Below, piece after piece: positions 24,668 through 28,988 of a DNA stretch of 34,836 nt (position 1 is its first letter; each line of letters begins with the position of its first letter). Where the stretch lies: contig JAJRVS010000147.1 of assembly GCA_024277195.1 (NCBI GenBank), forward strand, positions 1 to 34,836, in the 5' to 3' direction. The notes under the pieces are model-generated. The model worked only from the letters and a program-made list of their open reading frames with translations, made no database searches and was not told the origin of the DNA. This DNA is from Verrucomicrobiota bacterium (lineage in GTDB: Bacteria; Verrucomicrobiota; Verrucomicrobiia; Verrucomicrobiales; DEV007). The position numbers and the translations under genes were made by a program.

Positions 24668-25645
24668 TTGACTAAGCCCAAGAGCAAAAGCACTATCGTA
24701 AAGAGTGTAAAGGTTGCGGACTTTTTTGAGCGCCATGGGGAAGAGCTTCGCATGAAGCTGATTGGCACCCGTAGTGGTTTTGATCGCAAGATCATGGAGC
24801 CGACGGTTAATCGTCCGGGTTTGGCATTGGCGGGGTATTATAATTATTTTGCCCACCACAGGATCCAAGTCATCGGCAAGGCGGAGCGTTCGTATCTCAA
24901 GCATTTGGATGCGACAGAAAAACGTAACCGTTTTGCCGATCTCTGCAAACGTCAGATTCCTTGCATCATAGTTAGTAGAGGAGATACGATCAGCGCGGCC
25001 TCGGTGGAGATCGCCAACAAGGCCAAGCTTTCGGTGTTCCAAACGACCATGGTGACGATGAAGTTCATCAATGCGGCGACGGTACGGCTCGAATGGGAGT
25101 TTGCTGCCCGTACTACCCAGCACGGTTCAATGGTGGATGTGATGGGCATTGGTATTTTGATTCGTGGTGCCAGTGGAACGGGGAAAAGTGAGACAGTTTT
25201 ATCACTTTTGCGACGTGGGGCGAGTTTGGTATCTGATGATATGGTGTATTTCCGCAACTTTGAGGGGCGCGAGATCATTGGCGAAGCTCCTGAACTGGGA
25301 CAAAATCACATGGAAGTGAGGGGTTTGGGTATCATTAATGTGCCGGCTTTGTTTGGTGTGGGCACTGTTCGGACTGAAAAAAGGCTTGATCTGGTGATCA
25401 CTCTGAGGCCGGCGGATATGATGAATGAAGTGGATCGCATCGGCTTGGATCGCGGCTATTACAACCTGCTGGGGATGAAGGTTCCGCATGTGGAATTGCC
25501 GGTGGCTCCGGGTCGGGATATTGCTCAATTGGTTGAAGTAGCGGCATTGGATCAGAAATTAAAGTCTCTGGGACATGACTCGGCTGTCGAATTTAACAAG
25601 AAATTGTTGAAAATGATGCGTGAGCGACGAAAATCAGTTGTGTGA
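24668..25645 (+). CDS. hprK: HPr kinase/phosphorylase
   Basis: This 325-residue enzyme phosphorylates and dephosphorylates HPr on Ser46. The N-terminal domain (about 10-140) precedes the kinase domain with catalytic HG at 152-153, P-loop GASGTGKS at 167-174, acidic pair Asp190/Asp191 and signature EVRGLGIINV at 216-225. The start is taken as TTG 24668, three bases after the hpf stop, since it gives the normal family length; the first ATG, at 24752, would remove 28 residues. The target HPr gene lies 75 bases downstream and retains the Ser46 site. Confidence 0.95.
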   Translation: MTKPKSKSTIVKSVKVADFFERHGEELRMKLIGTRSGFDRKIMEPTVNRPGLALAGYYNYFAHHRIQVIGKAERSYLKHLDATEKRNRFADLCKRQIPCIIVSRGDTISAASVEIANKAKLSVFQTTMVTMKFINAATVRLEWEFAARTTQHGSMVDVMGIGILIRGASGTGKSETVLSLLRRGASLVSDDMVYFRNFEGREIIGEAPELGQNHMEVRGLGIINVPALFGVGTVRTEKRLDLVITLRPADMMNEVDRIGLDRGYYNLLGMKVPHVELPVAPGRDIAQLVEVAALDQKLKSLGHDSAVEFNKKLLKMMRERRKSVV

Positions 25646-25720: not shown

Positions 25721-25990
25721 ATGTTGGAAAAACAATATACTATCACTAATCGCCAAGGACTGCATGCGCGTCCTGCAGCGATGTTTGTTAAAATCTCTAA
25801 TCGCTTCAAATGCGAGGTCTGGGTCACGAAGGATGGTGAACAGGTGAATGGCAAGAGCATCATGGGACTGATGATTCTGGCTGCCGAGGAGGGTGCCAAG
25901 ATAGACATTTCTACAGATGGGGAGGATGAAACCGAAGCGATGGAGAGCCTGGGAGCATTGATTGAAAGTGGCTTTACCAAGGACGCGTAA
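25721..25990 (+). CDS. ptsH: Phosphocarrier protein HPr
   Basis: This 89-residue protein accepts phosphate from enzyme I on His15 (GLHARPA, 13-19) and is regulated by phosphorylation at Ser46 (NGKSIMGL, 43-50) by HPr kinase. Both sites sit at their canonical positions. No sugar-specific EII component is in the window, so the relay may be regulatory. ptsI follows after 90 bases. Confidence 0.97.
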   Translation: MLEKQYTITNRQGLHARPAAMFVKISNRFKCEVWVTKDGEQVNGKSIMGLMILAAEEGAKIDISTDGEDETEAMESLGALIESGFTKDA

Positions 25991-26080: not shown

Positions 26081-27858
26081 ATGCCTGAAAACGATCCACG
26101 AGAAGAACACCGATACCAGGGCACTGCGGTGTCTCCGGGCATCGTCCGCGCTCGAGTGCAGTTGAAAGGGGTGTTGATGGACGAGCCGGAATCCAGAAGG
26201 ATTGCCGAGTCGGAGTTGGAGGCTGAAGAGCAACGTTTGCAGCAAGCGCTGTTACTGACTCGTGAGCAAATTGTCGAGATGCGGCACAAAATCGAAGCGG
26301 TGGCCGGTGCTGAGAATGCGAGTATTTTTGATGCTCATTTGTTGCTGTTGGAGGATTCTACTGTTTTGGGGGAAGTGAAGAAGTTGATGCACTCCGAATT
26401 GCGCAATGTGGATCGGGTTTATTATGAGGTGATCGAGCGCTATCTGGAGTCGTTGCGCCGCATCGAGGATCCTTATCTGAGGGAGAGGGCGATTGATATC
26501 GAAGATGTGGCGATGCGGGTATTGAGAAATCTCGGTCCGGATGAGAATGCGGATGAAGAGTTGGTATTCGAGGGTTTGGGCGACGAATTTATTCTGGTGG
26601 CACATGACCTGACTCCCTCCGATACCGCGTCGATAGACCGCAATCAAGTTTTGGGATTTGCGACCGAGGTGGGCAGTATGGTATCTCACACCGCCATTAT
26701 GGCTCGTTCTCTTAATATACCGGCCGTGGTTGGTATTCCATCCTTACGGGCTGATGTGGAAACGGGTGATGAGGTTTTACTCGATGGTTATAATGGTTTG
26801 CTGATCGTGAGGCCGAATCAGGAAACGCTGGCGGAATATGAAATTCTGAAAGCTGAGAAAGCGGTTTTATTGGATGACCTAAAGGAGCTGCGCGACCGTG
26901 AAACGGAAACGGCTGACGGGCATCAGATCACGTTGTCGGCAAATATCGAATTTTCGCATGAAGTCAGCCAGGTGCAGAAGCAGGGAGCGGAAGGGGTCGG
27001 GCTTTTCCGCACCGAGTTTTTTTATGCCAATGAAAAAGCGCTAAGGACAGAGAATGCGCAGACGCGTCAGTATGTTGATGTGGCGGTGGCGGTGGCGCCC
27101 AATGCGGTGATTATCCGCACCGTTGATCTGGGCGGAGACAAATTAATGCCGGGCTTGATGGCTGAAGCGGAGCCTAATCCCTTTTTGGGTTGGCGGGGCA
27201 TTCGAGTGTGTTTGCAGGAGCCGGACATTTCCGCCCGCAGTTGAGGTCGATTTTGCGTGCCAGTGCGCGGGGCAAGGTGGGGGTGATGTTTCCATTTATC
27301 TGTTGCGTGGAGGAGTTGCGGGATGCGATCGCGGCCTTGGAGGAAGAAAAGATCAATCTTAGAAAAGCGGGTGAGCCTTTTGATGATAATATTGAAGTGG
27401 GGGCGATGATTGAAATCCCCAGTGCGGCTTTGATGGCGGATGAACTGGCCAGGGAAGTGGATTTTTTCAGTATAGGTACCAATGATCTGGTGCAATACAC
27501 CTTGGCGGTGGATCGTGTCAATGATCGGGTGGCCAATCTGTTTCGCAGTGCTAATCCTGCGGTGTTGAAGTTGATCAAACATGTGGTGGAGGCGGCGCAT
27601 CGCAATGGGATTTGGGCTGGAATTTGCGGAGAAATGGCAGGTGATCTGCTGATGACTCCGTTGATGATTGGTTACGGGGTTGATGAGTTGAGCGTGGGAG
27701 CATCCCAGTTATTGAGTGTGAGACGGGCGATCTCACGGCTCAGGGTGGATGAGTGTCAGAAGCTGGTGAAGGAGATCGAGGGACTTTCTTCTGCCAGCGA
27801 GGTGGAAGAGCGTTGTCGGGCTTTGGTGATGGAAAAATATCCGGAATTGGTGTCTTGA
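26081..27858 (+). CDS. ptsI: PTS enzyme I, interrupted by a -1 frameshift near 27229
   Basis: Enzyme I transfers phosphate from phosphoenolpyruvate to HPr. The first frame (26081-27244) has the N-terminal domain, the phospho-histidine motif GSMVSHTAIMARS (His203) and the PEP-binding barrel to NPFLGWRGIRVCLQEPDI, then ends after SARS. The sequence continues in the -1 frame from TTC at 27229 as FRPQLRSILRASARGKVGVM to 27858, with SIGTNDLVQYTLAVDR and the active cysteine in GICGEMAGD. One extra T in the run at 27228-27230 would restore a 592-residue protein of normal length. Both halves look fully conserved, which favours a sequencing or assembly error, a very recent mutation or, less likely, recoding. 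The start has GGAGAG eleven bases upstream. Confidence 0.9.
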
Positions 27859-28988
27859 TGAGTTCAACGCAATGGCGCATAGCATTATCGATCTTGTTGT
27901 CAGTATTTTTTCTGACGACACAGGCGCAGGCATTCCCTTTTGGTAAAAAAACAGCAGGGATAGAGGAGTCTGCGCAAGCTCCCTGTGGCCCTGGCGGCAT
28001 GACGATCACGCCCAGCGGATCCTATATTGTCAGTTGTCACCAGTTTTTTAACCCGGAGATGAAGGTGATGCGGCTGAATAAGGATGGGATTTGGGAGCCG
28101 TTCCCCAACCGGGCAATGAATACCGGGGAGGGGAATGCGCCTTTGGTGCTGGATTCTGTTTTGGGAGTCGAGTGCGACAAAGATGGCATCGTTTGGATGC
28201 TCGATAATGGCCGGCGGACTGAAAAACAGCCCAAGTTGGTCGCATGGAATACCAAAAAAAAGAGACTGCACCGGGTGATTCCGATCACCGAGGCGGCTTT
28301 GGTGGAAACTTCGTTTTTGGATGACTTGGCGCTGGATCCGGAGGAGCCTTTTATCTATCTGGCGGACCCGGCAGGTGGGGATGATGCCGCTTTGATAGTG
28401 GTGGATTTGGTCACAGGTTTGTCCCGCCGGGTGCTGCATGGGGATTATGCAGTTCGCGCAGGGAAAATAGGTCTGCAGATGGACGGGCAAGCCGTGGTGG
28501 TGAAACGGCCGGATGGCCGGCAGGTGAAACCGCTGAGCGGGGTCAACCCGATCACCGTGGACAAAAAAGGGCGCTGGCTGTTTTTTGGCCCGATGAACAG
28601 TCGCATTCTCTATCAGATAGAAACCAAGGATCTGCGCAATTCTGCCTTGCTTGAAGAGGAACTGGCCGGCCGGATCAAGCGGGTCAGTGGTCAGAAACCG
28701 ATTGCCAGCAGCATGTCGATCGATTCCAAAGGCAATATCTATTTTGCGGACATCCAGCGTCACGCGATCACTTATATTTCGGTGGTGGATCAGCGCTTGC
28801 ACACCTTGATCACGGATTCGCGCATTTTGTGGCCGGACGGATTGTGTTTTGGCACTGATGGCAAATTGCATTTTTTTACCAGCCAGCTGCATCGCTCAGC
28901 GATTTTTAATGCGGGCAAAGATCGCAGCCAGCCGCCCTTTTGGGTGTTTAAGATCAAGGCCAAAGCATCGGGAACGGTCGGGAGGTGA
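27858..28988 (+). CDS. Exported MRJP/yellow-like beta-propeller protein
   Basis: This 376-residue protein has a signal peptide (about 1-25, ending AQA). The beta-propeller resembles the major royal jelly/yellow family: FLDDLALDPEEPFIYLADPA, GGDDAALIVVDLVTGLSRRV, ITVDKKGRWLFFGPMNSRIL and IASSMSIDSKGNIYFADIQR. Bacterial members are often annotated as SMP-30/gluconolactonase-like or L-dopachrome tautomerase-related, but their substrates are mostly unknown. ATG 27858 overlaps the ptsI stop (TGATG). A longer in-frame start at 27753 lies inside ptsI and would bury the signal peptide, so I rejected it. Confidence 0.85.
   Translation: MSSTQWRIALSILLSVFFLTTQAQAFPFGKKTAGIEESAQAPCGPGGMTITPSGSYIVSCHQFFNPEMKVMRLNKDGIWEPFPNRAMNTGEGNAPLVLDSVLGVECDKDGIVWMLDNGRRTEKQPKLVAWNTKKKRLHRVIPITEAALVETSFLDDLALDPEEPFIYLADPAGGDDAALIVVDLVTGLSRRVLHGDYAVRAGKIGLQMDGQAVVVKRPDGRQVKPLSGVNPITVDKKGRWLFFGPMNSRILYQIETKDLRNSALLEEELAGRIKRVSGQKPIASSMSIDSKGNIYFADIQRHAITYISVVDQRLHTLITDSRILWPDGLCFGTDGKLHFFTSQLHRSAIFNAGKDRSQPPFWVFKIKAKASGTVGR

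Follow-up and report, generated by a model that had tools for sequence, protein, structure and literature searches.

Is ptsI, the gene for enzyme I, truly broken in this bacterium, or is it whole in the cell and broken only in the assembled sequence? In the window (the whole stretch of DNA that was analysed, 34,836 nucleotides), the gene is spread over two reading frames, and an earlier note on the same DNA proposed three explanations: a sequencing error, a very recent loss or recoding. The comparisons reported here make it very probable that ptsI is an ordinary gene, intact in the organism, and that the split arose when one base was wrongly dropped from the assembly consensus.

Two consecutive parts of one enzyme I

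Frame 1 of ptsI is open from 26081 to 27241 and closes with a premature TGA at 27242-27244. There is no single continuous reading frame; the continuation lies in the -1 frame, which is open from a stop at 27175 up to the stop at 27856-27858 (Table 1). The upstream part comprises the enzyme I N-terminal domain, the mobile His domain and the start of the PEP-binding domain. The expected domain order of an enzyme I is present (PF05524, PF00391, PF02896), with the last domain, PEP-utilizers_C, divided into two matches that meet at profile position 120. Matches to the family model for PEP:phosphotransferase enzyme I (TIGR01417) are likewise consecutive, running from 3 to 368 in the upstream part and from 369 in the downstream part, and they jointly cover 3-561 of the 565 model positions. 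The gene resembles this family in its coverage and in adjoining the genes for HPr and HprK, and differs from it in being broken by one missing base in the assembly.

Table 1. Features at the ptsI locus and at two further frameshifted genes of the same assembly (G000). Plain positions are those of the window.
Feature	Position	Strand	Basis or remark
hprK, intact HPr(Ser) kinase/phosphatase	24668..25645	+	TIGR00679 above cut-off
ptsH, intact HPr	25721..25990	+	TIGR01003; PF00381, single match
ptsI, upstream part	26081..27244	+	ORF; TIGR01417 3-368; PF05524, PF00391, PF02896 4-120
ptsI, downstream part (rest of PEP-binding domain)	27178..27858	+ (-1 frame)	TIGR01417 369-561; PF02896 120-291
Frameshift site	27227..27231	+	DNA alignments to G001 and G002
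Downstream gene, major royal jelly protein-like domain	27858..28988	+	sequence; PF03022
ftsA, frameshifted near C-terminal end	L136:4519-5759 (G000:C28)	-	survey and DNA alignment
J-domain chaperone gene	L161:10893-11878 (G000:C52)	-	split between DnaJ and DnaJ_C domains; one missing base in T run

DNA alignment with the two same-genus genomes placed the lesion. One base is missing at 27228 relative to both G001 (80% identity) and G002 (78%), and the T run at this site is shorter by at least one base than in either, the window reading ATTTCC, G001 ATTTTCC and G002 ATTTTTA. The upstream and downstream halves are 87% and 92% identical, respectively, to the intact G001 protein, which rules out a chance pair of open reading frames. 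The frames, the family-model matches and the alignments thus all agree with the earlier description of a gene split by a single-base frameshift with both halves conserved, in which the -1 frame takes up the family where the upstream frame stops and one extra T, as read in G001, repairs the frame.

Programmed -1 frameshifting would yield full-length enzyme I from such an arrangement, the alternative being the short product. A heptamer of the XXXYYYZ type, TTTGGGT, does occur in the right phase at 27184, where the -1 frame is open, and it is the only one in phase within the frame overlap. The earlier statement that no classical slippery heptamer is visible holds for the shift itself; it missed this one, which precedes the homology break by 44 bases. 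Slippage at that distance would garble a stretch in which G001 is identical. A scan of the overlap found no XXXYYYZ heptamer at the break, the RNA beyond this point shows no folding advantage over shuffled sequences (z +1.25; 185 of 200 shuffles fold at least as well), and the same-genus relatives encode enzyme I in one frame. With neither a heptamer at the break nor a fold signal in these tests, recoding at ptsI is unlikely, and production of the full-length protein by programmed slippage is hardly to be expected.

Enzyme I in relatives and its PTS context

The comparison with related genomes that the earlier note had called for revealed no disruption at the shift site. When 56 non-self relatives were searched with each ptsI part, 51 proved to have enzyme I in a single open frame across the shift point. 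In 50 of those 51 the frame has at least 589 aa; the exception, of 471 aa (G030), is ended by a contig end downstream. The other five either yielded no enzyme I with either part (G007 and G056) or have the gene cut by contig ends: one contig starts 58 bases ahead of the match to the downstream part (G042), another genome has just an upstream piece, which lies where a contig ends (G046), and in G029 enzyme I is divided between two contig ends overlapping by 20 bases. A lesion at the same site was considered for G029 and rejected in favour of a contig break, since the contig ends share these 20 bases. Of all the genomes searched, this one alone carries the lesion.

Judged from their sequences, both ptsI parts are under equally strong purifying selection, with dN/dS about 0.04, evolving as one working protein would. 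Relative to G001, the upstream part gave a dN/dS of 0.043 and the downstream part one of 0.041, both figures being subject to a nearly saturated dS (1.5-1.7). The changes that only the window has numbered 11 nonsynonymous to 52 synonymous in the upstream part and 3 to 29 in the downstream part, close to those unique to G001 (8:48 and 1:34). Neither the branch counts nor dN/dS gave any sign of relaxed selection on this branch, although a loss of very recent date would leave none; the absence of decay is as expected under either an error or a very recent change.

The surroundings of ptsI are in order. The ATG of the downstream gene shares one base with the ptsI stop (TGATG) and HPr is intact, as had been stated; ptsH is the sole HPr copy found in the genome by a PF00381 search. 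One EIIA of the PF00359 type is present, and searches of this genome found no PTS_EIIC permease of the PF02378 type and no EIIA-man. PTS_EIIC was present in only one of the 19 genomes searched, this one included. If intact, ptsI presumably encodes an ordinary enzyme I of a regulatory PTS lacking PF02378-type EIIC transporters. Regulatory enzyme I proteins of this kind (group R) have been described for Chlamydiales, Planctomycetes and others, in which PTS transporters are mostly absent (PMC2405797). The genome studied here resembles them in having a single enzyme I with HPr and HprK and no PTS_EIIC found, a resemblance only and not a tree-based assignment; the string "Verrucomicrobi" does not occur in the main text of that paper.

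It is in this context that a true, very recent one-base deletion, knocking out enzyme I in the sampled strain, has to be weighed. The lesion is confined to this genome, as a recent event would be, and with no PTS_EIIC or EIIA-man found, enzyme I could be lost without cost to PTS sugar uptake. There are also precedents, Bartonella and Ureaplasma being recorded as having HPr but no enzyme I (PMC2405797). In such a strain, from a lineage without PTS transporters, HPr would be phosphorylated only by HprK, using ATP, and PEP-dependent signalling to the single EIIA would have ended; this outcome, too, has a low probability. Against a loss, nearly all relatives keep enzyme I despite the rarity of PTS_EIIC among them, selection is not relaxed, and a like lesion lies in the single-copy ftsA of the same assembly. 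A very recent loss, one of the options of the earlier note, therefore has a low probability and ranks below an error.

One-base losses elsewhere in the assembly

A background survey was used to separate error from loss, comparing 596,055 bases of this assembly (G000) with 1,260,325 bases of G001, of the same genus. Across 140 orthologue pairs (153,636 coding bases), three single-base frameshifts were found in G000, in ptsI, ftsA and a J-domain chaperone gene, and in each of them DNA alignment placed the one missing base within or next to a run of T. The reverse comparison, over 141 pairs (155,430 bases), revealed no single-base frameshift in G001. Further one-base frameshifts in conserved genes are what a consensus error would lead one to expect in this assembly.

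These counts come from a refined survey that listed five G000-broken rows, of which two were dropped and three kept. The L035(+)/L056 row was presumed, from its pattern, to be an antisense shadow, and in the L104/L144 row the open reading frames lie opposite others, which we take to be those of ribosomal proteins. The reverse comparison listed one row, L151/L115, which was discarded since the query does not carry its two pieces contiguously. Rows with in-frame stops (3 and 5) were left out of the count as mostly presumed shadow ORFs. From the first survey, two L062/L107 candidates were not counted because of several gaps in the DNA alignment, and of its four reverse rows L136/L070, L144/L104 and L161/L069 fell away, leaving L151/L115, when ORFs that a longer ORF overlaps were taken out. 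A de novo search for split genes, based on codon usage, was unspecific (82 candidates in G000, 115 in G001), many adjacent genes overlapping.

The ftsA gene is the only match above the family cut-off in the genome and stands between an intact ftsZ and an ORF that is presumably ftsQ-like. Its frame has 363 aa, against 406-530 aa in all 18 other relatives, and its frameshift is likely another consensus error. The downstream part of the J-domain gene has 213 aa, against frames of 338 aa in G001 and 333 aa in G002. That two further conserved genes of the assembly, among them a cell-division gene, show like one-base losses favours a consensus error at ptsI; a joint new loss of enzyme I, the J-domain chaperone and the end of the only FtsA is less likely than scattered assembly indels. 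Together with the undisrupted site in relatives, these frameshifts clearly favour sequencing error among the three options first proposed. The deletion error would lie at or beside the short T run in the consensus, and the reads or the living cell would be predicted to carry the full-length ptsI frame.

Several observations temper this reading. Three frameshifts against none is a small count; were the two assemblies equal, a fair coin would produce it about once in eight. With three or four T, the run is short for an error of this kind, and the G000 contigs are short, looking more like those of a short-read assembly; indel errors are rarer in short-read assemblies. Homopolymer run-length spectra are alike in the G000 and G001 samples, with no overall shortening of runs and hence no gross homopolymer compression in G000, although such shortening is expected only if indel errors are very frequent. 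The small count, the like spectra and the short run are the reasons why confidence in an error is high rather than complete and why a loss keeps a small share of the probability.

Frame-breaking homopolymer indels have been documented in long-read metagenome assemblies (PMC9262707). Like those errors, the losses described here remove single bases within or adjacent to T runs of conserved genes, while the errors of that study come from nanopore data, which may not be the platform of this assembly. Three events in the coding sequence compared amount to about two frame-breaking losses of a single base per 100 kb, a rate that would imply many falsely broken genes. Wherever this assembly suggests an absent gene or a pseudogene, the call needs checking, and the ptsI split carries little biological weight unless the deletion is real.

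Two minor observations concern the other genes. The J-domain homologue of G011 is also short, with an open frame of 199 aa (G011:C177:29251-29805). The ftsZ gene beside ftsA (L136:1607-4429, minus strand, G000:C28) has an open frame of 941 aa, with a very long acidic, repetitive C-terminal extension.
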